Source of the DNA: an uncultured Spirochaetaceae bacterium
GTDB taxonomy: Bacteria; Spirochaetota; Spirochaetia; Sphaerochaetales; Sphaerochaetaceae
DNA length: 64,000 nt
Assembly: GCA_900315435.1 (NCBI GenBank)
Contig: OMYY01000011.1
Span: 1-64,000 of the forward strand
Direction: 5' to 3'
The notes under the pieces were generated by a model. That model made no database searches, was not told where the DNA came from, and worked only from the letters and a program-made list of their open reading frames with translations. Position 1 is the stretch's first letter; every line of letters starts with the position of its first letter. The position numbers and the translations under genes were made by a program. Positions 1,030 to 32,115 of this stretch are shown here, piece after piece.

Positions 1030-3819
1030 ATGAAGAAAATGCTCAAAGCCTCCAAGGTCGTGATTCTCGCGATTCTTGCGTTGACAGTCTTTTTCATTAT
1101 CCAGCTGAAGAACTTACGGATGGAGAATGATATCAGAGAGTACATGCCGCACGAGTCTGGCTCGTATCAGCGTTTGCTGGAGACCGAAGATGTGTTCGGA
1201 AGTACCGTGGTGACAGGCATATCGCTTGAGACCAGCGATCCGACCATTTTCACTGCGGACAATATCAAGAAGATTGACTCCATCACCAAACGCATGGAGA
1301 ATGTCGAGAATGTCAGTGATGTCCAATCTCTTACCAATATCGACTACCTGAAGGACGATAACGGCACTCTGGTCGCAGGACCGCTGTTGGATGAGGATTT
1401 CACCGGCACTGACGCCGAGGTCGAGAATGTCCGCGACAAGGTCGCAGACTGGTCCGAGTTGTATGACCGGGTGATCATCAGCGACAATGACCGCAGCACC
1501 CAGATCCAGGTGACCCTGAAGACTGGGGCCACCAAGGCGGAAAAGCGGAAGATGCTGAAAGACCTGCGCGCCATCCTCAACGAGGAGACCGATGGAACCC
1601 ATTTCGAGTACCGCATGTACGGGGACACGATCATCGACGAGCAGGCCGAGGTGATGATGATCATGGACCTGAAGAACCTCATTCCTCTGGTTGTCCTGGT
1701 CGTCCTGCTGTCGCTGCTTTTCTCGTTCCACACGTTTGACGGTACGATTCTTCCGTTGCTCACCGTGCTGATGAGCACCGTGTGGACCGTCGGCATCATG
1801 GCCATGCTGGACATGCCGTTCACGATTGTCAGCTCGATCATCCCCGTGGCGCTGATTGCTGTCGGTTCCGCGTATGGCATTCACGTGCTGACCCATTACT
1901 ACGTGGCTCTTGACGACCGCGACAAGAGCATCCCGCTTACCCGTGACAACTACCTTGACTTGATTGCCGGCAGCCTGAAGGAGGTGATGCCCGCCGTCAT
2001 GATGGCAGGCGTGACCACGATTGCCGGTTTCATCAGCATGATGACCAGCCCGATCGAGCCGTTGCACAGCTTCGCGCTGTTCACCGCCCTCGGGGTTGCC
2101 TTCGCGCTTTTGCTGTCGATCACCTTCATTCCTTGCTATCTGGCTGTCAAGCCGCTTTCCAAAGTGGGTGACCGCTCGAGAATCTTCAACCGGCTCACCA
2201 AGAAGCTGGAGAACAAGCAGGTGGCGAGCGGGCATAAGCTGAACAACGGTGGCTTCCTGTATGGCCAGTATCAGTTCTTTGCCGGCAATTCCACCAGGAT
2301 GACGGTTTTCGTCGGCCTGATGGTCATCATCAGCGTCATTGGCTTGAAGCTTCTGGTGGTCGACACCTCGTTCGTCAACTATTTTCCTGCCAAGGGAAAG
2401 GTCCGTCAGGATATCGCGTTTGCCGATGACAACTTTGCCGGCACCAACAGCGTCTACCTGACAGTCCGCGCCCCGGAAGGGCAGAAGGCCTACAACGTCG
2501 ATATGCTGCAGCCTCTTGACAACATGCAGACCTATCTCGAGGGCAAGTATCCGCAGATCGGCAAGACGGTCAGCTTCTCCACCTTCGTGAAGAAGATGAA
2601 CCAGGTCATGCACGCCCCTGTGGTCAATCCTGTCGCCGACGAGTCGGACGATTCCGCGGCCTATGATGATGGCGGCGCGCTCCCCAGTTTCGGAGACGAC
2701 AGCGCCGTTCCGAGCTTTGGCGATGATTCGTCGATTCCGAGTTTCGGAGATGACGCGTCGGTCCCGAGTTTCGGCGACGAGGGAGCTTCTGCCAGTACGG
2801 AGGAGAGCGCCTATGTCGACCCCAACATCGCCTACGCCAAGGAATTGGGCACCACCAGCACCACCGAGCAGATGCTGGACCTGCTGCACGAGGCCTACAT
2901 CAAGGCCGGCGGGCGCCATGCGACGGTCGAGGCAATGATTACCGAGCTGGAGAAATCGGTGAACTACAAGGGCATGAGCTACTACGAGGTCCCGAACGAC
3001 ATGACGAAATACCCGGCCACGACCAGGGAGGACCTTTCCTTCGTCGTCGCCCAGTACCTGACCATGATCGGCAGCGACCTGGACCAGTTCATCAACGATC
3101 CGAACGAGCCGACCTCGACCCGCATGCAGATCCAGTTGAAGACCCACAGCACCACGGTCACCAAGGCGATCATCAAGGATGCCGAACAGTTCGCCAAGTC
3201 GCACTTCCCGCAGGGGTACACGATTGACGCCGAGGGGCCTGGTGAGATCGAGAGCGCTATGACCGACATGGTCATCTCCAGCCAGGTGCAGAGCCTGATC
3301 TTCAGCCTCGTCTGTGTCGTCGTGATTCTGACCGTGGCTTTCAAGAGCCTGTGGGCTGGCCTGCTGGGCGCTGTCCCGCTCGCCTTCACGATCCTGCTCA
3401 ACTACATGCTGATGGGTTTCCTGGGCATCAACCTTGACCTGGTCACCAGCATCATCGCCAGCGTTGCGGTCGGTGTCGGAATCGACTACACGATCCACTT
3501 CATGCAGACCTTCAAGGAGGAGTCCCAGTACGAGGAGGAGAAGTCGCATGGCGAGGATGTCAACTACGAGGTCGCGACCCGCGAGACGTTCAAGAAGAGC
3601 GGAAGCGGCATCGTGACCAATGCCATGGCGGTCGGTCTCGGGTTCGTGGTGCTCTGCCTGTCCCAGTTCGTGGTGCTGCAGAACATCGGCATCCTGATCG
3701 CGATCGTCATGTTCACCTCGAGCTTCCTGGCGATGACCATCATCCCTGGTCTGCTCAACGCGCATCATCCGAAGTTCATCACCAGGATGGACAAGAAAAA
3801 AGTGTCGAAGAAAGACTGA
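1030..3819 (+). CDS. RND/MMPL-superfamily inner-membrane transporter, cassette 1
   Basis: A 929-residue proton-driven RND-type pump of the MMPL/COG1033 kind, probably moving a hydrophobic or lipid-like substrate out of the inner membrane. It has one N-terminal membrane helix (about 12-31), a periplasmic domain (32-205), a six-helix bundle (about 210-375), a second leading helix near 423-442, a second periplasmic domain (445-750) and a last bundle (752-915). The second periplasmic domain holds four tandem 9-residue repeats, xPSFGDDSx (residues 551-586), which look natively disordered and are not part of the standard fold. It is followed within 30 bases by a LolA-like gene and a barrel gene, forming a clear operon. 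ArsR control is likely. Confidence 0.9.
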   Translation: MKKMLKASKVVILAILALTVFFIIQLKNLRMENDIREYMPHESGSYQRLLETEDVFGSTVVTGISLETSDPTIFTADNIKKIDSITKRMENVENVSDVQSLTNIDYLKDDNGTLVAGPLLDEDFTGTDAEVENVRDKVADWSELYDRVIISDNDRSTQIQVTLKTGATKAEKRKMLKDLRAILNEETDGTHFEYRMYGDTIIDEQAEVMMIMDLKNLIPLVVLVVLLSLLFSFHTFDGTILPLLTVLMSTVWTVGIMAMLDMPFTIVSSIIPVALIAVGSAYGIHVLTHYYVALDDRDKSIPLTRDNYLDLIAGSLKEVMPAVMMAGVTTIAGFISMMTSPIEPLHSFALFTALGVAFALLLSITFIPCYLAVKPLSKVGDRSRIFNRLTKKLENKQVASGHKLNNGGFLYGQYQFFAGNSTRMTVFVGLMVIISVIGLKLLVVDTSFVNYFPAKGKVRQDIAFADDNFAGTNSVYLTVRAPEGQKAYNVDMLQPLDNMQTYLEGKYPQIGKTVSFSTFVKKMNQVMHAPVVNPVADESDDSAAYDDGGALPSFGDDSAVPSFGDDSSIPSFGDDASVPSFGDEGASASTEESAYVDPNIAYAKELGTTSTTEQMLDLLHEAYIKAGGRHATVEAMITELEKSVNYKGMSYYEVPNDMTKYPATTREDLSFVVAQYLTMIGSDLDQFINDPNEPTSTRMQIQLKTHSTTVTKAIIKDAEQFAKSHFPQGYTIDAEGPGEIESAMTDMVISSQVQSLIFSLVCVVVILTVAFKSLWAGLLGAVPLAFTILLNYMLMGFLGINLDLVTSIIASVAVGVGIDYTIHFMQTFKEESQYEEEKSHGEDVNYEVATRETFKKSGSGIVTNAMAVGLGFVVLCLSQFVVLQNIGILIAIVMFTSSFLAMTIIPGLLNAHHPKFITRMDKKKVSKKD
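2680..2787 (+). repeat. Four in-frame 9-residue repeats (P-S-F-G-D-D) in the RND pump
   Basis: Units start LPSFGDDSA, VPSFGDDSS, IPSFGDDAS and VPSFGDEGA. Synonymous codons differ between copies, so this is not a recent slip but a maintained protein repeat. Similar units recur at the mature N-terminus of the barrel encoded at 4642-6204. Confidence 0.9.
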
Positions 3820-3846
3820 TTCGAGCAAGGTAAGGAGAGAAATACT

Positions 3847-4623
3847 ATGAAAGCAATGAGAAATGCGTTTGCCGTTGGTTTGCTGGCCACCTTGGTGGCA
3901 AGTCCCCTAGCCGCAATCACCGGCCGTGAGGTCATGGAGAAGGCGGACGCCGTCCCCGAGCCGAAGACCAGCATGAGCCAGGTCCAGATGGACCTTGTCG
4001 ACAAGAATGGTACGGTGCAGAGCCGTATGATGCTGGAGTACGGCAGGGAACCGGAAGACCTGAAGGATATTGTCATCATCTTCCAGAGTCCCGCCAGCGT
4101 GAAGGACACCCGTTTCCTGCAGAAGGATAAAGCGGGAGGCGGTTCGGACAAATGGATCTACATGCCGAGCCTGCGCAGCACCCGCCGTATCGCGGCCAGC
4201 GAGGGCGACAAGTCCTTCATGGGCAGCGATGCCACCTACGACGACCTTTCCGGCCGCGAGCTGGACGATTATGAGTACGAGCTGCTTTCCGAGAGCGAGT
4301 CGAAGGGCAAGTGGACTACCTACAAGGTCGAATGCACTCCGAAGCCGACCACGGACAGCCAGTATTCCAAGCTGGTTACCTGGATCGACCATGACACCTT
4401 CGTTCCCGTCTATACGGAGATGTACGACAAGGACGGCAAGCTCTTGAAGGAGCTTGAGGTGATGGACCTGCAGGTGGTTGGCGGCTATCAGACTCCGATG
4501 CTGAACGAGCTGCGCAACGTGCAGACCGGCCACAGCACCAAGCTGACCATCAAGCAGATCAAGGTCGACCTTGCCCTGCCTGACCGCATCTTCACGACCA
4601 ACTTCCTGAATACCGGCAAATAA
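3847..4623 (+). CDS. LolA-like outer-membrane lipoprotein-sorting family protein, cassette 1
   Basis: A 258-residue secreted protein (signal peptide about 1-23, cut near PLAA) of the COG2834 'outer membrane lipoprotein-sorting protein' group, which shares the LolA/LolB half-barrel that carries acyl chains through the periplasm. Family marks visible are W-I-Y-M-P, the R-R-I block, and FMGSDATYDDL around residues 125-135. There is no lipobox, so it should be soluble. A Shine-Dalgarno site (AAGGAGAG) precedes the ATG. It sits between the RND pump and the barrel, which suggests it ferries the pump's substrate across the periplasm. The true cargo is unknown. Confidence 0.85.
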   Translation: MKAMRNAFAVGLLATLVASPLAAITGREVMEKADAVPEPKTSMSQVQMDLVDKNGTVQSRMMLEYGREPEDLKDIVIIFQSPASVKDTRFLQKDKAGGGSDKWIYMPSLRSTRRIAASEGDKSFMGSDATYDDLSGRELDDYEYELLSESESKGKWTTYKVECTPKPTTDSQYSKLVTWIDHDTFVPVYTEMYDKDGKLLKELEVMDLQVVGGYQTPMLNELRNVQTGHSTKLTIKQIKVDLALPDRIFTTNFLNTGK

Positions 4624-4641
4624 CAGTACAAGGAGGACGAG

Positions 4642-6204
4642 ATGAGCATTATGTGGAAAAAGGTACTGCTGGCCGCAGCCTTGGCGGCATTTGCCACCAC
4701 TGCCGTGATGGCTGACGACCTTCCGTCTTTCGATACCCCGAGCGACAACTCGATTCCCGGTTTTGGCGATGAGAGTAGCTCGCTTCCCGGTTTCGAGTCT
4801 GATTCGGGTTCCGCTTCCAGCTCGAGCTTCGGTGCCGCTTCCAGCGCCTTGGCCATCAGCGGAGAGGGTGGAGCCTCGTCCCGCTGGTTCCTTGCCGGAG
4901 CGAGCGACATCGAGGACCGCGCGGTCCAGATGGATCCCTATTTCCGGTTGAACTTCTCCTACAGCGGTTCCATCGGCGAGGTGGAGGCGAAGCTGAAGGT
5001 CAATGAGCGGATCCTGAAGGACAACCCTGAGGATGTCATCGACGAGTTGACGCTGCGCGCCTATCTGGGCGATTTCGTCCTCGAGGCTGGCAAGATGAAG
5101 CTGGTCTGGGGCAAGGGCGACAAGGTCCATGTCCTGGACAACTTCAACAGCGACGACTATTCCGACTTCATCTTCCCGGACTACATCGACCGCCGCATCG
5201 CCGTGCCGATGGTGCACGTCGCCTACAACATGGACAACGGCATGAGGCTTGAGGGTGCCTACACCCCGTACATGACCGGCACCCGCTACGCCTCCAGTGG
5301 TCCGTGGGTCCCGGAACGCACGCTGCTTGACGCCTACCAGGCGGCGGACAGGGCTGCAAAGGAGACTCCTTACTATGGATCTTTGTACACAGAGCCTACA
5401 CTGGATAAGTTCCTGGCTCGTTACGGTAGCTACAAGGCTACCGACCTGTACGGGTTCTCCAAGCACAACCTGCCCGATACCCGGACCTTGAAGTACGGCC
5501 AGTTCGGTCTGCGGGCCACCGGTACCGTCGGTTCGTTCGACTGGGGCGCTTCCTACTTCTACGGAAGGATGAAGGATTCCTCGATCCACTCCGCAGAGCT
5601 GGTGAGGATGTTGTTGAATGCGGGATGTAGTTCTGTTCCTTCCTCTTTACCGTTCCCCTTACCGGTTGGTCAGCTGTACGACTACGACCGCATGCAGGTC
5701 TTCGGGCTGGAGGGTGCGACCGTGGTGGGTGGATTCAACTTCCGTGCCGAGCTCGGCTACTTCCTGACCGATGATGTCGATGGCGACGATCCGTATGTGC
5801 ACAACAACAGCCTGCAGTGGGTCTTCGGCTTCGACCGCGACCTGCCGTGGAACAACCTGAACGTCAACATCCAGACCCAGGGAAAGTATATCCTGCATGG
5901 GGATGACGTGAAGGACAACGGGGTCGGCGATGTGGACTACAACGGGGAGAAGGCCTGGGTGCAGAACCGCCTCGTGCTGGATATCACCGACAGCTGGATG
6001 CATGAGAAGCTGAAGCCAGAGCTGAAGCTGGTCTGGAACATCGAGCTGGAAGACGTGGTCGTCATGCCGCAGGTTTCCTATCAGCTGATGGAGGGCCTGG
6101 ACGTCTCGTTGGCCGGTCTCTACATCTACTCGGGCGACAACGGACAGTTCTACGATTTCAAGGACAATTCCTTTGTCCAAGTCGGAGCTGTCTACAAGTT
6201 CTGA
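4642..6204 (+). CDS. DUF1302-like outer-membrane beta-barrel, cassette 1
   Basis: A 520-residue exported protein with a signal peptide (cut near residue 24, VMA-DD) and many alternating aromatic/polar strands up to a terminal phenylalanine (VQVGAVYKF), typical of an outer-membrane barrel. The segment ending K-L-V-W-G-K-G-D, with conserved Asp residues after it, resembles the 'G-R-Q-x-x-x-W-G-E' block of DUF1302 proteins, which proteobacteria often encode next to RND pumps. Residues 27-57 form an acidic linker with PSF and PGFGDES units matching the repeat in the neighbouring pump. A strong Shine-Dalgarno site (AAGGAGG) precedes it, and a terminator follows. Confidence 0.75.
   Translation: MSIMWKKVLLAAALAAFATTAVMADDLPSFDTPSDNSIPGFGDESSSLPGFESDSGSASSSSFGAASSALAISGEGGASSRWFLAGASDIEDRAVQMDPYFRLNFSYSGSIGEVEAKLKVNERILKDNPEDVIDELTLRAYLGDFVLEAGKMKLVWGKGDKVHVLDNFNSDDYSDFIFPDYIDRRIAVPMVHVAYNMDNGMRLEGAYTPYMTGTRYASSGPWVPERTLLDAYQAADRAAKETPYYGSLYTEPTLDKFLARYGSYKATDLYGFSKHNLPDTRTLKYGQFGLRATGTVGSFDWGASYFYGRMKDSSIHSAELVRMLLNAGCSSVPSSLPFPLPVGQLYDYDRMQVFGLEGATVVGGFNFRAELGYFLTDDVDGDDPYVHNNSLQWVFGFDRDLPWNNLNVNIQTQGKYILHGDDVKDNGVGDVDYNGEKAWVQNRLVLDITDSWMHEKLKPELKLVWNIELEDVVVMPQVSYQLMEGLDVSLAGLYIYSGDNGQFYDFKDNSFVQVGAVYKF
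4720..4812 (+). repeat. PSF/PGFGDES repeats at the mature N-terminus of the barrel
   Basis: Three related units, LPSFDTPSD, IPGFGDESS and LPGFESDSG, directly after the signal peptide. They match the xPSFGDDSx repeat of the RND pump two genes upstream. Confidence 0.8.
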
Positions 6205-6299: not shown

Positions 6300-7628
6300 A
6301 TGCGTATCCAGCTTTCAGACCATTTTACCTATGGGCGCCTTTTCCGTTTCACCTTTCCCTCCATCATCATGATGGTGTTCACCTCGATCTATTCGGTCGT
6401 TGACGGCTTTTTCATTTCCAACTACGTCGGCAAGGTGCCGTTTGCCGCCTTGAACCTGGTCATGCCCCTCTTCATCATCCTTGGTTCCGTGGGGTTCATG
6501 CTGGGATCCGGGGGCAACGCGATTGTGGCGCGGACCTTGGGGGAGGGGGATAGGTCAAAGGCGAACCGCTACTTCTCGTTCCTGGTGCTGGCCTGTATGG
6601 GTTTGGGCTTGCTGGTCTTTCTTGTGGGATTCGCCTCGCTTTCCCCTATCGCCCGGTTCCTTGGCGCGAGTGGCGAGATCTTGGGCAATTCGGTGCTTTA
6701 TGGCCGGATCGTGTTGTGCGGCATGCCGTTCTTCATGTTGCAGAACCTGTTCCAGAGTTTCTGCATCACCGCTGAACGGCCGAAACTCGGACTGGCGTTC
6801 ACGGTTGCCAGCGGCCTCGCCAACATGATTCTTGACGCATTGTTCGTCGCTGTCTTCAAATGGGGGCTTGCAGGCGCAGCCTGGGCTACCGTAATCAGCG
6901 AGGTCGTCGGAGGTCTTGGTCCTGTCTTCTATTTCCTCAGACCGAACGCGAGCCTTTTGCGGCTTGGACGCACCCGCTGGTATGGGAGAGTGCTGTTGCA
7001 ATCCTGTTTCAACGGGTCTTCGGAGTTGATGAGCAACATAGCCGCCAGTATCGTCTCGGTGCTCTACAACTGGCAGTTGCTTTCCTACGCGGGGCCTGAC
7101 GGAGTGGCGGCATATGGAGTGCTGATGTACATCAGTTTCTTCTTCAGCGCCATGTTCATCGGTTACGCTGTCGGCGTCTCTCCGGTAGTCGGTTTCCACT
7201 ACGGGGCTGGCAACAAGAAGGAACTGAAGAACCTCCTGCATAGAAGCTTTTTGCTGATTGGCGTGTCGGGTATTTGCATGTGGGCGTTGGCATCGCTGAG
7301 CGCTCCTTCGCTCTGCCGGGTTTTCGTGGGATATGACGAGAACCTGTATCGGATGACGGTGGGGGCGCTGAGAATCCACGCTTTCTGCTTTTTGCTTGGT
7401 GGTTTCAACATCTTCACCTCCTCGTTCTTCACTGCGTTGAACAACGGAGGGGTGAGCGCGCTAGTCTCGTTTCTCCGGACATTGGTCTTTGAGACGGGAA
7501 GCGTGGAGCTGTTGCCGCTGGCGTTGGGGCTCAATGGCATATGGGCGGCAACCGTCATCGCGGAGAGCGCCGCGCTGACAGTGAGCTTGCTGTGTCTGTT
7601 TTGGCAACGGCCCCGTTATGGATATTGA
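6300..7628 (+). CDS. MATE-family efflux transporter
   Basis: A 442-residue inner-membrane protein with about twelve hydrophobic helices in two similar halves, as expected for a cation-coupled MATE exporter of drugs or small metabolites. The early glycine-rich loop (GFMLGSGGNAIVAR) is characteristic. The start is fixed by the promoter, whose -10 box ends 10 bases upstream, so the mRNA is probably leaderless or nearly so. The 3' end overlaps that of the convergent MATE gene by 74 coding bases. The substrate cannot be told from sequence. Confidence 0.88.
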   Translation: MRIQLSDHFTYGRLFRFTFPSIIMMVFTSIYSVVDGFFISNYVGKVPFAALNLVMPLFIILGSVGFMLGSGGNAIVARTLGEGDRSKANRYFSFLVLACMGLGLLVFLVGFASLSPIARFLGASGEILGNSVLYGRIVLCGMPFFMLQNLFQSFCITAERPKLGLAFTVASGLANMILDALFVAVFKWGLAGAAWATVISEVVGGLGPVFYFLRPNASLLRLGRTRWYGRVLLQSCFNGSSELMSNIAASIVSVLYNWQLLSYAGPDGVAAYGVLMYISFFFSAMFIGYAVGVSPVVGFHYGAGNKKELKNLLHRSFLLIGVSGICMWALASLSAPSLCRVFVGYDENLYRMTVGALRIHAFCFLLGGFNIFTSSFFTALNNGGVSALVSFLRTLVFETGSVELLPLALGLNGIWAATVIAESAALTVSLLCLFWQRPRYGY

Positions 7629-8952
7629 GTTCCTTGTGTAGACGGACCAGCAGGATGATGGCGGTCGCTTGCCCGACCAAGTCGCCGAAGAAGTAGCAGT
7701 ACCAGACCCCGGAAAGCCCGATGCAATGGGCGAGGAGGTAGGCGGCGGGAAGCACTCCAAGCACCTGCCTGCTCAGGGTGATCAGCGCGGCGCGCATCCC
7801 TTTGCCGAAGCCTTGCAGGTAGGCCGCACTCTGATAGAGCAGGGGAGCGCCGATAAAGCACAGGCTGACCCGGGGAAAGGCGATTTCCATCTGCCTTGCC
7901 AGCTCCGCGCTTGGGCGGAACATGCCATACAGCCATTCGGGGTGTATCTGGAAAAGCGGGAATCCGAATCCCAGCATGTACAGATAGGTAAAACAGAGAG
8001 ACCAGCGATAGGCGCTGCGAGTCCGGTCGATCCTGTTCGCTCCATAGTTGAAGCTGGTGATCGGGACCAGACTGTTCGACATGCCGTGCATCGGCAGGAA
8101 GATGAAGGATTCGACTTTGATATACAGCCCGTAGGCGGTCACCGCGAGCGGAGTGAACCCGATCAGGATCTTGTTGACCAATGTCAGGCTGATCGAGCCG
8201 CTTGCCTGCAGCAGCATGGTCGGTACCCCGATGGCGAGGATGGTTCCTGCGGCGCTTTTCCTCCATATCCGTTGTCCGCGTTGCAGGCAGGAGAGCTTGT
8301 CGCTGCGGACAAGCAGGACTGTGGCGATAGCGCAACTGGCGGCCTGCCCGATGATTGAGGCCCAGGCGGCACCGGCGACCCCCATGTCCAGGCCGAACAT
8401 CAGGATCGGATCCAGAATCAGATTGCAAACGACGCCCACCGCCAGGCAGAGCAGGGTATGGAGGCTTTCCCCGGTACCCTGCAGCATGAAGGTGATGACT
8501 CCTCCTGTGACCTGGAAGCCACAGAGGACGATGCTGATGCCGATATAGGTCAGGGAGAAATCCGCGAGTGCCGGATCGTCAGTGAAGAAGCGGACATAGG
8601 CCCCCACCAACGGTCCGCCAAAGACGAGAAAGAGCAGGGAGATTCCCAAGCTCATGCCCAAGGCGGTGTTGCCCGCCTCGTTCGCCTCACGTTGCTCGCC
8701 TCTGCCCAGACGGCGGCTGATTGCCCCGCTTGCGCCAAGCCCCAGGCCGCCAGTCAGGGCGACGACCAGCTGCTGGATCGGGTAGGCGAGGCTCAGGGCT
8801 GCGATGGGACCGTTCCCGAGCCGGGAGACATAGAGCGAGTCGATGATGTTGTACAACGCCTCAAGGGCCATGCTGAGCATGATGGGGAGTCCCAGTTTCA
8901 GGACCAGGATGGGAATCCTCTCCGTGCCCATGCGGTTGGAAGGAGCCTGCAT
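7555..8952 (-). CDS. MATE-family efflux transporter
   Basis: A 465-residue MATE protein with the family's GLGLGASGAISRRLGRGE loop in the first half and about twelve membrane helices. It is the second gene of a two-gene minus-strand operon, starting 24 bases after the stop of the 8977-10329 MATE gene with only a weak ribosome site (AAAGGT). Two different MATE proteins in one operon may have different substrates or may work as a pair. MATE proteins normally act alone. Its last 74 bases lie opposite the end of the plus-strand MATE gene. Confidence 0.88.
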   Translation of the reverse strand: MQAPSNRMGTERIPILVLKLGLPIMLSMALEALYNIIDSLYVSRLGNGPIAALSLAYPIQQLVVALTGGLGLGASGAISRRLGRGEQREANEAGNTALGMSLGISLLFLVFGGPLVGAYVRFFTDDPALADFSLTYIGISIVLCGFQVTGGVITFMLQGTGESLHTLLCLAVGVVCNLILDPILMFGLDMGVAGAAWASIIGQAASCAIATVLLVRSDKLSCLQRGQRIWRKSAAGTILAIGVPTMLLQASGSISLTLVNKILIGFTPLAVTAYGLYIKVESFIFLPMHGMSNSLVPITSFNYGANRIDRTRSAYRWSLCFTYLYMLGFGFPLFQIHPEWLYGMFRPSAELARQMEIAFPRVSLCFIGAPLLYQSAAYLQGFGKGMRAALITLSRQVLGVLPAAYLLAHCIGLSGVWYCYFFGDLVGQATAIILLVRLHKELNIHNGAVAKTDTASSLSARRSPR

Positions 8953-8976
8953 ACCTTTGGTAATAACGGATTTCCT

Positions 8977-10329
8977 TTATTTGAACAACGGTTTTACTTT
9001 ACGCCGGTATTCCCAGGCAAAAAGCGTGATGACGAGCGTGAGGCTGACAGTCTCGGCGATGATGAAGGCGAACCAGACGGCGTGCAGGCCCTGGATTCTG
9101 GCAAGGATCCAGGCGGCAGGAAGCAGGACGACCAGCTGGCGGGTCAGGCTGACAACCATCGAGAGGATACCGTCCCCAACCGCCTGGAAGAGCCCCATCA
9201 GGCAGATGGAGATACCTGCGGGGACAAAGCAGAGCGAGAGTATCGGCAGTGCATGTTCGCCGATGGTCCGCATCTGTTCCCCTGCATGGAACAAGGAGAG
9301 CAGGAAGTCTGGAAAAATCGTGAAGCCCAAGGTCCCAAGGCACATGATGGCGGTGGCGATGGAGACTGCGGTACGGATCGCCTGGTTCATGCGCCGGGGG
9401 TTCTTGGCACCGAAATTGTAGCCGACAATGGGAATCAGGCCGCTGTTCAGGCCGAAAACCGGCATGAAAACGAAGCTTTGCAATTTGAAATAGACGCCGA
9501 ATACAGAAACCGGGGCCATGCCGAAGGCGACCAGGATCTTGTTCAGACCGCTGGTCATCACCGTTCCGATCGACTGCATGACAATGGAAGGAAGCCCCAC
9601 CGCGTAGATTTCCCTGATGGTCTGGACGTGCAGCTTCCTGTTCTCCGGTTTCAGCGTGACATATGGGTTCCGCTTGACGAACAGGTAGCTGAGCAGGGCG
9701 GAGACGTGCTGCCCAAGTACCGTGGCGATTGCCGCGCCTGCTATGCCCATGCGGGGGAATCCTGCCAGCCCGAAGATCAAGACCGGGTCCATGACGATAT
9801 TGGTCGCCGCGCCGGCGAGCTGGACGATCATCGGATGCACCGTATCCCCGGTGGCCTGCATGATCCGTTCCAGCGTGATGTCGATGAAGATGGCTCCGCT
9901 TGCCACCAGGCACCAGCGGGTGTAGACAGTTCCCATCTCCACCAGTTCCGCGTCATCGGAGAAGAGCCTGAAGAAGGGACGGGAGAGGAACAGGCCGATC
10001 ATGATGAAGGCGGCCCATCCGAACAAAGCCAGGGTGATGCCTTGGCTTGCCGCTTGCTCCGCACCATCCCGGTTCTTGGCCCCGAGGTTGCGGGCGATCA
10101 GGCTGCCGACACCGATGGCGGTTCCCACGGCGACCGAACCCATCAGGTTCTGGAGCGGAAACGCAAGGCTGACCGCCGCGAGCGCCGCCTCGCTGTACAT
10201 GGAGACGAAAACCGAGTCGACGATGTTGTAGAGCGCGAGCACCAGCATGCTGACCATGATCGGCAATGACATGGATATGACAAGGCGGGGAACGGGAAGG
10301 ACTCCCATCCGATTTTCTGCATGTTCCAT
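8977..10329 (-). CDS. MATE-family efflux transporter
   Basis: A 450-residue MATE protein, first gene of a minus-strand pair. The first-half loop GVGSLIARNLGAKNRD and a second similar half with about twelve helices support the family. A promoter (TTTACC, 17 bases, TATGAT at 10338-10343) ends just 8 bases before the ATG, so translation is probably leaderless. The divergent neighbour is aspartokinase, and the 100-base gap holds both promoters. Confidence 0.9.
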   Translation of the reverse strand: MEHAENRMGVLPVPRLVISMSLPIMVSMLVLALYNIVDSVFVSMYSEAALAAVSLAFPLQNLMGSVAVGTAIGVGSLIARNLGAKNRDGAEQAASQGITLALFGWAAFIMIGLFLSRPFFRLFSDDAELVEMGTVYTRWCLVASGAIFIDITLERIMQATGDTVHPMIVQLAGAATNIVMDPVLIFGLAGFPRMGIAGAAIATVLGQHVSALLSYLFVKRNPYVTLKPENRKLHVQTIREIYAVGLPSIVMQSIGTVMTSGLNKILVAFGMAPVSVFGVYFKLQSFVFMPVFGLNSGLIPIVGYNFGAKNPRRMNQAIRTAVSIATAIMCLGTLGFTIFPDFLLSLFHAGEQMRTIGEHALPILSLCFVPAGISICLMGLFQAVGDGILSMVVSLTRQLVVLLPAAWILARIQGLHAVWFAFIIAETVSLTLVITLFAWEYRRKVKPLFK

Positions 10330-27804: not shown

Positions 27805-30162
27805 ATGCGGATTACAAGCATCAATGGCGTCTTCCGGAGCATAGGGACGTGGCAAGTCGCCCATCGCTGGCCTTTGCTGGTTGTTACCGTTCTTATCTCG
27901 CTTTTCTGTCTTGCGGGTATCCCCCGTGCCAAATTTTCCAACCAGTCCGACGATTGGTTTGACGACACAGAGAAGGTGAAGGTCGATTCCGACCATTTCA
28001 AGGATATTTTTGGAAATGACGACTCGGTGATGGTGCTGGTGCAGGCCTCTGATGTGTTCGCCCCCGAGGTGCTCCAGGCGATCGACCAGTTGGGGGACGA
28101 GTTGCTTGCCTCCGTTCCTTACGCTGACAAGGTGACCAGCCTTACCACCGTGTCGGTGCCTACCGGAACCGAAGAAGGGTTTGAGGTTTCCAGTCCGTTC
28201 GCCGACGGAATACCTGACGACCCCAAGTTGCTGGCGGAGAAGAAGGCGTTCCTGCTGGGCAAGTCCTCGCTGAAAGACCATCTGGTCAGCAGTGACGCTA
28301 CACAGACATGGGTTGTGCTTTCGCTGTTCCCTTACGACACCGACTCCGAGGAGGCGATGATCAGAGTGGGCGACGCGGCACGCGGTGTGCTTGCGTCGGG
28401 CCGGTATACGAGCAGTCTGTATACGATGAAGGCGACCGGGATGTCCTATACCGAGGCGGAAGAGCATATCGTGGTCGACCACGAGACACGGGTCAGGGTG
28501 ATGGGGGGCTTTGGCGTCATGCTGCTCTGCCTCGTCATTCTTGTCCACTCTCTCCGGGGAGTGGTGATTCCCATCCTTGCCACGTTCCTCGGTATCGGGT
28601 CTGTCTTCGGTCTTTCCGGCTGGCTCGGGGTGGAAGGAAACTCCACTTTGGTCACCTTGCCGATTTTGCTCGGGATGGCCCTTTCGGTAGGCTACGCGAT
28701 CCACCTGATCGATGCCTTCCGCACCCATTTCCGACAAAGCTGCAGGCGGCGCCAGTCGGCGATAGACGCCGTCAGCGAGTGTGGGTGGCCGATTCTCTTT
28801 ACCGTGCTGACAACGATGGTCTCGTTGCTTTCTTTTCTGCTGGCCGACATGAAGCCGATGCGGTGGCTCGGCAGTATATCGGCGGCTGTGGTTCTTGCCG
28901 TCTATCTGTTCGTGATGGTGTTGGTTCCGGTCTTCATGAGTTTCGGCCGGGACAGGGTGCCAAGCCCGGAAGAGGTAGCCACCCAAGGAGCTACCCGGGC
29001 CGATCTGCTCTTCGGCCGTTTCGGACGGGTGGTCATTGCCAGAAGTCCACTTGTCATCGCCATCTCCATAGCGGTCATTGCCTGGTCGATTCCGGGACTG
29101 GCGCGCACGCATGTCAACATGGACTATACGCAGATGATGGGGAAACGGATTCCGTATGTCGCGAGAATGCTTGATATCCTCAATTCCAAACTGGGGAGCC
29201 AGTACAGCTACGATGTGCTGGTCGAATGCCCTCAGGAAGGAGCTTTCAAACAGGCTGGGACGATGGAGGCATTGGACCGGTTTGAGCGCTATCTGGGCGC
29301 TTTGAGCCAGACAAAGGTCACTGACGGCCAGCCCCGTACCACAAGTGTGGTACGCCTGGTCAAAGAGATGCACAGGACTTTGAACGGGGATGATGAGGCC
29401 TGTTACGCGATTCCTGAGGATGACGACCTGCTGTCGCAGGAACTTTTCTTGTACGAGATATCAGATCCCGAAACCTTGTTCGATGAGCTGGACGAGGACT
29501 ATCGGTACGCGCATATCCATGTGGAGCTCAATGGGTACGATGCCAACCAGATTCTCAAGGACATATCCAGTGCCAAGGACTATGGACAAAGCCTTTTCCC
29601 GGGAGCCAAGGTTTCGGTTATCGGGCAGGTGGTCGAGTACGCGGCGATGAACGGCAAGGTGGTCATCGGCGAGCTCAAGTCCTTTGGCGGGTCCTTGGTG
29701 GTTGTCGCCATCCTGCTGATGGTGGTCTTCCAGTCGGTCCTGACCGGTCTGGTCGCCATGATTCCCAACATCGTTCCGGTCCTGCTGGTAGGAGGGGCGA
29801 TGGGGTGGACGAACACGCCGCTGGACATGATGACCATGACCATCATGCCGATGATCCTCGGTATCGCCGTCGATGACACAATCCACCTGACGACCCGTAT
29901 CCGCTTCGAGATGGAGGATGGAACGACGACAGGCGCCATGGCGGTGGAGCGGTCGTTCCGGGAAATCGGCAAGACGATGGGCATGACCACGCTGATTCTC
30001 TGCTCGATGTTCCTCGTCTATTGCTTCAGTCCGATGATGGCTCTTCTTCGTATCGGCGTCCTTTCCATCATCGGTCTTGGCTCCGCTCTCGCGGCCGACT
30101 ACACGCTGACGCCGGTATTGATCAATCTGCTTTCCAAACGCAAAGGAAAGAGGGAGGAGTGA
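27805..30162 (+). CDS. RND/MMPL-superfamily inner-membrane transporter, cassette 2
   Basis: A 785-residue pump paralogous to the one at 1030: an N-terminal helix (about 25-42, LLVVTVLISLFCLAGI), a periplasmic domain, six helices (about 235-380), a second leading helix near 415, a second periplasmic domain, and a final bundle from about residue 630 to 780 with the GIAVDDTIHLTTR stretch typical of COG1033 pumps. It lacks the PSFGDD repeats of the first paralogue and is about 145 residues shorter, mostly in the second loop. GGAGG ribosome site. A LolA-like gene and a barrel gene follow immediately. Confidence 0.9.
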   Translation: MRITSINGVFRSIGTWQVAHRWPLLVVTVLISLFCLAGIPRAKFSNQSDDWFDDTEKVKVDSDHFKDIFGNDDSVMVLVQASDVFAPEVLQAIDQLGDELLASVPYADKVTSLTTVSVPTGTEEGFEVSSPFADGIPDDPKLLAEKKAFLLGKSSLKDHLVSSDATQTWVVLSLFPYDTDSEEAMIRVGDAARGVLASGRYTSSLYTMKATGMSYTEAEEHIVVDHETRVRVMGGFGVMLLCLVILVHSLRGVVIPILATFLGIGSVFGLSGWLGVEGNSTLVTLPILLGMALSVGYAIHLIDAFRTHFRQSCRRRQSAIDAVSECGWPILFTVLTTMVSLLSFLLADMKPMRWLGSISAAVVLAVYLFVMVLVPVFMSFGRDRVPSPEEVATQGATRADLLFGRFGRVVIARSPLVIAISIAVIAWSIPGLARTHVNMDYTQMMGKRIPYVARMLDILNSKLGSQYSYDVLVECPQEGAFKQAGTMEALDRFERYLGALSQTKVTDGQPRTTSVVRLVKEMHRTLNGDDEACYAIPEDDDLLSQELFLYEISDPETLFDELDEDYRYAHIHVELNGYDANQILKDISSAKDYGQSLFPGAKVSVIGQVVEYAAMNGKVVIGELKSFGGSLVVVAILLMVVFQSVLTGLVAMIPNIVPVLLVGGAMGWTNTPLDMMTMTIMPMILGIAVDDTIHLTTRIRFEMEDGTTTGAMAVERSFREIGKTMGMTTLILCSMFLVYCFSPMMALLRIGVLSIIGLGSALAADYTLTPVLINLLSKRKGKREE

Positions 30163-30166
30163 AGAA

Positions 30167-30946
30167 ATGCGCAACATCTTGCTGATGGTTGTCCTGCTTG
30201 CCGTCAGGGGCGTTTTCGCCCATGCGGAGCCTTTGACAGGATACGAAATCGCCAAGCGTTCCGACGAGATTCCTGAAGGGACGACCTGTCAGGAGACAGC
30301 GACGATGACACTGGTCAACAAAAAGGGGAAGAGCCGGGTACGGGTCATCTCGATGTCCTCCAAGGACTATGGAGACGTGAAGAAGTCCGTCTTGGTCTTC
30401 TCCCAACCAAAGGACGTGGCAGGAGTGGCTTACCTGATGTTCGAGTGGGACGACGAGGACAGGGACAACGACTGCTGGCTCTACCTTCCTGCCATGAAAA
30501 AGGTCAGGCGAATCAGTGGCTCTGGCAGGGAGGAGGACTTCATGGGAACCGATTTCACCTACGACGACATGGGCGACCGGGGTGTGGAGAAAGATATCTT
30601 TACCTTGCTTGGCGAGGAGGATGTCGATGGACAGCCCTGCTACAAGGTCCAGGCGGTGGCGAAGGACAGTGCCGAACGGAATCCCCGAAGGATCGAATGG
30701 TACCGTACCAGCGATTGCCTGTTGCTCAAGGTGGAGCTCTACGACCGACAGGACATGCTGGAACGGGTGATGGTCTCGGAGGATATCCAGACAATCGACG
30801 GGTACCTGACCATAGGGAAAATGACGATCCAGAACGCGCAGACCGGCCACAAGACCATTCTGGAAATGTCTGACGTAGCCTATGACCAGAGCCTGGACGA
30901 TTCCTTGTTCACGGTGGCGACAATCGAGCGGGGAAACCTCTTGTGA
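30167..30946 (+). CDS. LolA-like outer-membrane lipoprotein-sorting family protein, cassette 2
   Basis: A 259-residue exported COG2834-type protein (signal peptide about 1-22, cut near AHA). It shares the marks of the cassette 1 protein: the W-L-Y-L-P / R-R-I block and FMGTDFTYDDM, then an 'A-Q-T-G-H-K-T' strand near the end. This family has the LolA/LolB fold that shields acyl chains. The start lies four bases after the pump's stop, and its stop overlaps the barrel's GTG start. It probably carries the pump's substrate through the periplasm. Confidence 0.85.
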   Translation: MRNILLMVVLLAVRGVFAHAEPLTGYEIAKRSDEIPEGTTCQETATMTLVNKKGKSRVRVISMSSKDYGDVKKSVLVFSQPKDVAGVAYLMFEWDDEDRDNDCWLYLPAMKKVRRISGSGREEDFMGTDFTYDDMGDRGVEKDIFTLLGEEDVDGQPCYKVQAVAKDSAERNPRRIEWYRTSDCLLLKVELYDRQDMLERVMVSEDIQTIDGYLTIGKMTIQNAQTGHKTILEMSDVAYDQSLDDSLFTVATIERGNLL

Positions 30947-32115
30947 GACGCGCCCTGCTGCTTCTTTGGGGGAACCTTTTCCTTGCTTTCCCGCTCTTTC
31001 CCCTCCAGATGGTTCCCAAAGGGAAGGTAGCGGTGGTGCAGGCGGCGGGAAAGGGGGGAAAGATCCGGTCCTCCCTCCTTTCGATGGAAGGCGAGCTTCG
31101 CGTCTCTTCAGGGGAGACCTTGTTCTATGGGGATGGGTCGCTGGAGGTGGACGCGCTGGCCAACCAGACGGACGGTCAGGTCAGGGAAGCCTGGTTCGAC
31201 TACAGCGAGGGCTGGTTCTCCTTCCGTGTCGGACGGCAGATTGCCGCCTGGGGCGAGGCCGACGGGGTAAGGATCACCGATGTGCTTTCCTCCCGTGATC
31301 TCCATACCCTCTATCAGGACGACAAGCTCGCCATCGACGCGCTCAGGCTGACCGGCTCTTGGGCCAGCCATAGCTTCGATTTCTACTGGATTCCCATGTT
31401 CCGCGTCGCCCGGCTTCCCGGGGATGGCAACCCCTTGGCGGAACTTGATGCCTACCGTATCCTTTCCCTCCTTGACCGGCAGGAACCTGAACGGGAACTT
31501 GCCCATGGTTCCTACGCGGTGCGGTTTGCCAGTAGGACACCGATGATTGACTACGCTTTCTACGGATACTGGGGGTACAATGACCTGCCCATCGTGGATA
31601 TCGGAAAAGGAATGGCCGTGTACGAGCGTATGGGCATGGTCGGCTTTGATGCCGATATGCCGGTCGGTTCCTTTGTGTTCCGTATGGAAGGTGCCTGGTA
31701 TCCTTGGCAGGCGCTCCAGCGAAAGGACCTTGGAGGTAGCGAGCGGAGGAACCAGATCCAGGCTCTGGCAGGTATGGACTGGATGCAAGGTGGCTGGTCG
31801 TTGACCCTGCAGTATGCTTGTGATCTGGTTCTAGGGAGGACATCAGGGCTGAATCACGAGCGCTACGAGCACAAGGCGACCATCTCGCTTTCCCGGTCGC
31901 TTTGCGACGACCTGCTCGATCTCTCGCTAGAGGCGGCGGCCGGCCTGAACGACCTTGACAGCGTCTGGCATGCGAGCATGGCATATGACGTCACTGACGA
32001 CCTTGCCATCGAAGGCGGTTGGTACCTGTTCCTGGAAGGACCAGAAAGGACGGGGACATACGGCACGTATCGAGACTATTCCATGGCGTACGCGAAGGCG
32101 ACATACCAGTTCTGA
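30943..32115 (+). CDS. DUF1302-like outer-membrane beta-barrel, cassette 2
   Basis: A 390-residue exported barrel starting at GTG, overlapping the previous gene as GTGA. It has a hydrophobic signal (LLLLWGNLFLAFPLFP) and ends in phenylalanine (YAKATYQF). The block FSFRVGRQIAAWGEADGVRI matches the DUF1302-type 'G-R-Q-x-x-x-W-G-E' signature better than the first paralogue does. It has no PSF repeats. It probably receives or releases the hydrophobic cargo at the outer membrane. Confidence 0.75.
   Translation: MRRALLLLWGNLFLAFPLFPLQMVPKGKVAVVQAAGKGGKIRSSLLSMEGELRVSSGETLFYGDGSLEVDALANQTDGQVREAWFDYSEGWFSFRVGRQIAAWGEADGVRITDVLSSRDLHTLYQDDKLAIDALRLTGSWASHSFDFYWIPMFRVARLPGDGNPLAELDAYRILSLLDRQEPERELAHGSYAVRFASRTPMIDYAFYGYWGYNDLPIVDIGKGMAVYERMGMVGFDADMPVGSFVFRMEGAWYPWQALQRKDLGGSERRNQIQALAGMDWMQGGWSLTLQYACDLVLGRTSGLNHERYEHKATISLSRSLCDDLLDLSLEAAAGLNDLDSVWHASMAYDVTDDLAIEGGWYLFLEGPERTGTYGTYRDYSMAYAKATYQF

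Follow-up and report, generated by a model that had tools for sequence, protein, structure and literature searches.

A candidate docking motif shared by the pump and the barrel of a LolA-like export operon

Exporters made of a pump, a periplasmic carrier and a barrel are a known kind, as the accessible text on AmeABCD of Castellaniella defragrans indicates: an HAE3-type pump, a periplasmic protein of the LolA superfamily and a DUF1302 barrel are encoded there in one cluster (PMC6394551). In the same text AmeB is a 451-aa DUF1329 protein, an extra periplasmic protein, AmeC, is present, the bridging role is given to AmeB and AmeC, and no repeat tracts are described (PMC6394551). For the P. putida proteins PP_0765/PP_0766/PP_2018/PP_2019, the DUF1302 barrel is likewise predicted to bind the LolA-superfamily protein, and AlphaFold models place this LolA-type protein against the barrel and against the pump assembly; this is, however, a DUF1329 system, its contacts are predicted, and the accessible portion of the paper mentions no linear motif (PMC10866462). 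LolA3 of Porphyromonas gingivalis (9tp6) shares the LolA-like fold with the carrier studied here at 33-34% identity, but it has a glycine at the position of residue R89 discussed below, and its description, in the part available, sets out no motif system (PMC13103446). The lipid and siderophore RND transporters MmpL4/5, MmpL3 and HpnN share the pump fold, at 11-14% identity. To our knowledge, none of them works with a LolA-like protein and a DUF1302 barrel that have a motif in common. A search of the open-licence literature returned no description of a co-evolving linear motif common to both membrane-embedded ends.

The operon and its repeat units

We analysed a window of 64,000 nucleotides, the whole stretch of DNA under study, from an uncultured Spirochaetaceae bacterium (contig OMYY01000011.1). 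As in AmeABCD, a pump, a LolA-superfamily protein and a DUF1302 barrel are encoded in one operon (Table 1, cassette 1); a counterpart of AmeC was not found in it, and a MATE-like gene follows the barrel. Profile searches assign the three proteins to MMPL, PF17131 and DUF1302, respectively. The best-scoring model for the pump was NCBIfam HAE3 (TIGR00921), at 239.8 bits and thus below its cut-off of 351.9, so that we regard the pump as HAE3-like and not as a strict member. Its AlphaFold2 (AF2) model has the RND fold, with Foldseek matches to MmpL4/5, HpnN and NPC1 (E down to 9e-23). The closest solved relative of the LolA-like protein by fold is P. gingivalis LolA3 (9tp6, TM 0.91 by target length).

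Table 1. Positions in the window of the operon genes and motif features, with the pumps that carry a relocated tract
Feature	Position	Strand	Basis
Inner-membrane pump, HAE3/MMPL type, 929 aa	1030..3819	+	MMPL PF03176, 128.6 bits (Pfam cut-off 20.5)
Disordered insert, second periplasmic domain of the pump, residues 535-592	2632..2805	+	pLDDT < 50
Pump unit 1, PSFGDDS, residues 552-558	2683..2703	+	sequence
Pump unit 2, PSFGDDS, residues 561-567	2710..2730	+	sequence
Pump unit 3, PSFGDDA, residues 570-576	2737..2757	+	sequence
Pump unit 4, PSFGDEG, residues 579-585	2764..2784	+	sequence
LolA-like periplasmic carrier, 258 aa, candidate motif receptor	3847..4623	+	PF17131, 211.2 bits (cut-off 30)
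LolA-like R89, clade-specific, strand TRFL	4111..4113	+	97% of motif-bearing vs 0/12 motif-less triples
LolA-like F253, clade-specific, C-terminal helix	4603..4605	+	94% of motif-bearing vs 0/12 motif-less triples
Outer-membrane barrel, DUF1302 family, 520 aa	4642..6204	+	PF06980, 32.1 bits (cut-off 23.2)
Disordered N-terminal tail, mature barrel	4714..4851 (end approximate)	+	pLDDT < 50, AF2 fusion of LolA-like protein and tail
Barrel unit 1, PSF, residues 28-30	4723..4731	+	sequence
Barrel unit 2, PGFGDES, residues 39-45	4756..4776	+	sequence
Barrel unit 3, PGFESD, residues 49-54	4786..4803	+	sequence
Relocated-tract pumps: L094, L098, L103, L104, L106, L109, L111, L114, L116, L120, L125			

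The preliminary description had reported four nine-residue PSFGDD-type units in a periplasmic loop of the pump, three like units at the start of the mature barrel, and none in a second cassette of the window, and all three observations held. The pump units (residues 552-585) are spaced by exactly nine residues, as their codon starts show. They lie in an insert between helices 516-527 and 598-606 whose pLDDT is below 50 throughout in the AF2 model. The barrel units PSF, PGFGDES and PGFESD come directly after the predicted signal peptide. The second pump/LolA-like/DUF1302 cassette (27805-32115), a separate paralogous type that provides an internal control, has no loop insert and no barrel tail; those cassette-2-type pumps that were parsed have 6-7 residues where the window's pump has its insert.

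Genome-wide specificity was judged by codon-pattern searches. The pattern P[S/G/A etc.]F[G/D/E][D/E] gave 46 matches in the genome versus 23 for a reversed control pattern, and its sole cluster comprises the four pump units and a barrel unit, five matches within 2.1 kb. Since this cluster is the only one and the matches are about twice those of the control, the likeness is unlikely to stem from chance or from a general house style.

Around the operon, a divergent ArsR-type regulator, possibly that of the operon, adjoins on the minus strand (467-874), and three MATE-type efflux genes, recognised by a look at the sequence, lie directly 3' (6300-10329). The pump is 100% identical to that of a record named Treponema ruminis RU1 (L053); on the pump tree it stands beside that of a Sphaerochaeta metagenome-assembled genome (MAG; L054) and apart from other Treponema, for which transfer or naming is a possible cause.

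Spread and wording of the motif among relatives

Orthologous triples of pump, LolA-like protein and DUF1302 barrel (n=104) were gathered within the organism's own family and from 84,980 species genomes, with unlinked barrels recovered by profile; they come from Treponema, Sphaerochaeta-type spirochaetes, Fusobacteriota and Halanaerobiales. An aromatic-acidic tract was present on both pump and barrel in 104/104 of these triples and on neither protein in 18/18 paralogous triples of the cassette 2 type (spirochaetes and Halanaerobiales), counts that carry the uncertainty of signal-peptide ends set by a simple hydrophobicity rule and of many metagenome-assembled loci, neither of which touches the repeats seen in the window itself. 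In some motif-less pumps (e.g. L199, L200, L241) the loops were read by eye and not by the automatic parser. Joint presence in the orthologues was thus paired with joint absence in the paralogues (104 versus 18 triples). Orthologues with the repeat on one protein only, named beforehand as the observation that would count against a common docking surface, did not occur among the 104 triples compared. Under a fixed rule 103/104 distinct triples were positive on both proteins, and the lone exception (L130; pump SFYQ, barrel SFYSS) fails on its acidic-residue count alone.

The tract always lies in the second periplasmic domain of the orthologous pumps, where it can be much reduced (GLGFGFED in L019 and L021), and directly after the signal peptide in every orthologous barrel with a readable N-terminus. 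No LolA-like protein of the orthologous triples carries it, and no such repeat tract was found in the other ORFs of the same loci. In genomes of the tryptophan type, DDWG words cluster in pump and barrel only; the SFYQ pattern is uninformative in AT-rich Halanaerobium genomes, which yield hundreds of chance matches. On these sequence comparisons, the motif arms are confined to one clade of the pump/LolA-like/DUF1302 operon. Since the motif-bearing and motif-less types are old paralogues, a handful of events could account for the joint pattern of presence and absence, a caveat of which the tests of wording given below are independent.

In Treponema parvum (L093), the LolA-like and barrel genes lie downstream of the pump on the opposite strand to it. 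In a Fusobacteriales MAG (L124), the barrel frame shows an apparent frameshift immediately behind the motif tail (L124:9608-9740); the pump there reads DDGFADSSF and the barrel frame starts with FDDGFDTTDSG.

What the orthologues share is an aromatic residue in an acidic and small context and not the letters PSFGDD. Across lineages the wording takes such forms as PSFGDD, DDWGDS, FGDFGD, DSFFSSD and SSFYQ. Pump and barrel read PSFGDDS and PGFGDES in the window, DDWGDSGDDWGDS and DDWGSD in one group of loci (L073), FDDFGDFGD and DDFDSFGDFGD in L057, SFSSFGDE and FGSFGDSF in the Sphaerochaeta MAG (L054), APDSFFSSD and DSFGSFFGG in L018, and SSFYQ and SFYEK in a Halanaerobium (L129). Sphaerochaeta-type proteins have one short site each: FDFF in the pump loop (e.g. 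VFDFFTDL, SFDFFGDSFGFDD) and, at the N-terminus of the barrel, FDxF or a word like it, the mature proteins starting with FDLFLEE, FDFFATLDDE, FDIFAEEEE, FDGFTDIF, FSGFDAIF or EGFSDIF. This short form is probably the older one, with repeats arising later.

In 11 Treponema pumps (Table 1) the tract is missing from its usual loop, which is empty, and about 40 residues upstream, in the same domain, an equivalent one lies between a strand and a helix. What looked like a loss of the tract in these pumps was therefore rejected as an alignment effect. The relocation amounts to three changes on the pump tree, which comes from a quick search and has several weak forks. That the tract is kept while its site changes is more in keeping with display than with a structural role at one place.

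Co-variation of the wording was analysed in 42 clusters with pump identity below 75% (35 clusters in a first version). The mean Smith-Waterman local score of a pump insert with its own barrel tail was 52.1, compared with 39.8 for mismatched pairs (0/20,000 permutations), and in 30/42 clusters the own tail scored higher than that of the nearest relative (p = 0.008). Similarity among inserts followed similarity among tails after pump relatedness had been regressed out (partial Mantel r = 0.37, 0/10,000). In Halanaerobiales, whose pumps have 3-4 FY units and whose barrels have one, an SFF unit is found in just two pumps (L237, L240), and these are paired with the only two SFF barrels. Tryptophan presence was concordant in 65/75 triples; this test alone is not significant, since only about three independent pairs on the tree are informative, all of them in one direction. 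Single-trait phylogenetic independent-pair tests pointed the same way and were underpowered. Mismatched wording also occurs, most clearly in L120 and L131, where the pump has DPF repeats and the barrel DDWGSSDY.

Gene conversion was rejected as a source of the likeness: codon identity in the shared words was 0.494, compared with 0.479 expected from codon usage, so that the likeness is kept at the protein level and not through exchange of DNA. The sequences show that the arms are coupled, and their wording co-varies beyond relatedness under selection that acts on the protein and not on the DNA.

A possible common partner

The change of wording in step at both ends, over several phyla, suggests that the two ends hold the same partner. 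We see an even chance that pump loop and barrel tail carry a shared docking motif for one partner, which would most likely be the LolA-like shuttle. The LolA-like protein is the best candidate since it is the only other product of the operon, its residues R89 and F253 track the motif (Table 1), and its P. putida relatives have been modelled at both ends. At the R89 position, four solved relatives have G, A, K and A. By comparison with P. gingivalis LolA3, F253 would fall in the C-terminal helix. The helix of that protein is packed against the sheet's convex side, away from its lipid groove (PMC13103446). The Halanaerobiales proteins show a like contrast at their C-terminus between motif-bearing and motif-less forms. 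However, R89 and F253 could be mere marks of the clade, because the motif-bearing and motif-less LolA-like proteins form separate branches. The net charge of the protein does not separate the groups (medians -1, -4 and -5.5). Moreover, the LolA-like protein stays about 40-56% identical while the wording of the motif varies widely, which would not be expected from a single strict pocket.

The genes of the pump, the LolA-like protein and the barrel share one reading frame (3817-4642), with gaps of 27 and 18 bases, so that natural readthrough fusions could be modelled. Neither the AF2 fusion of pump and LolA-like protein nor that of LolA-like protein and barrel tail showed docking, and the tracts had pLDDT below 50 in both. 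We regard these models as weak negative evidence, since the parts are separated by a signal peptide and the models come with no inter-domain error map. The proposal of the preliminary description that both tails dock on one surface, perhaps that of the LolA-like protein, has therefore fared unevenly: its linear-motif part is strongly supported by the 104 triples, the co-variation and the protein-level selection, but for the surface the fusions gave no confident docking. Taken together, we consider the chances of the LolA-like protein being the common receptor of both arms to be about balanced.

The main rival to such a receptor is direct tethering, in which pump loop and barrel tail would bind each other and either bridge the membranes or cluster the parts. 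Contact of like with like, through aromatic stickers and acidic spacers, would predict the like wording at both sides, and the tracts are disordered and mostly multivalent. The pump loop faces the periplasm, as the barrel N-terminus presumably does from what is generally known of such barrels, and the tracts, at 60-110 residues, could reach across much of that space. Yet tracts that are acidic on both sides should repel each other, and the single short site of each Sphaerochaeta-type protein, like the one FY unit of the Halanaerobiales barrels, leaves little for cohesive binding. The number of aromatic residues in pump and barrel, furthermore, correlates weakly (Spearman 0.30, p = 0.07). We therefore consider direct tethering unlikely, although it deserves to be kept in mind.

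Alternatively, both arms might bind a third partner in the periplasm that is not linked to the operon, such as an assembly factor or OMP chaperone recognising peptides rich in aromatics. Several units do have two close aromatics (FDF, FGF, SFF) and so resemble what some OMP chaperones bind. A partner of this kind is nevertheless improbable: the tracts are on two proteins of one operon and on none of the other ORFs of the same loci, the genomes tested have no further clusters of the words, and the paralogous DUF1302 barrels have no tracts, which argues against a general signal for barrel assembly. Finally, neutral flexible linkers, whose letters would reflect a habit of the whole genome or the exchange of repeats from one gene to its neighbour, would suit repeats that are low in complexity, variable in number and disordered, but they are very improbable given clusters confined to the pump and barrel genes, codons without a trace of exchange, wording that co-varies once relatedness is removed, and a pump tract that survives relocation.

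If a shared docking motif is assumed, the pump loop and the barrel tail would each be a disordered arm, and the two would present one and the same docking peptide, with an aromatic residue (F, W, FY or FF) amid acidic and small ones. Both arms would bind one site on the partner, most likely on the LolA-like shuttle and away from its lipid cavity. The shuttle would be held at the pump for loading of its cargo and again, via that one site, at the barrel for unloading; binding at the two ends would be mutually exclusive because one site serves both. Multiple weak copies may raise the local concentration of the shuttle. Here we infer the binding by the arms, the LolA-like protein as their partner, the order of events and a lipid-like cargo. 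A similar principle is found in the DPF/FxDxF arrays of clathrin adaptors and in nucleoporin FG repeats, where many weak aromatic peptides in disordered tails hold one folded partner. These are eukaryotic and unrelated proteins, and the likeness is an analogy only.

Implications for carrier traffic between two membranes

In the widest form of our proposal, pump and barrel would pass a soluble lipid carrier between them via a common, co-evolving docking peptide on disordered arms, from spirochaetes to Halanaerobiales, with each lineage rewriting the word at both ends; for this whole we put the chances slightly short of even. The proposal bears on two open questions: by what means a carrier locates the outer membrane when there is no LolB-type receptor, and by what means an HAE3-type pump connects to it when there is no membrane fusion protein. 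If both end stations share a motif, this would offer a direct and testable answer, in which a peptide of fewer than 10 residues should bind the carrier. If the proposal is true, a single F-to-A change at either end should uncouple transport, and the operon would be a clear example from bacteria of linear motifs that co-evolve and link two membranes.
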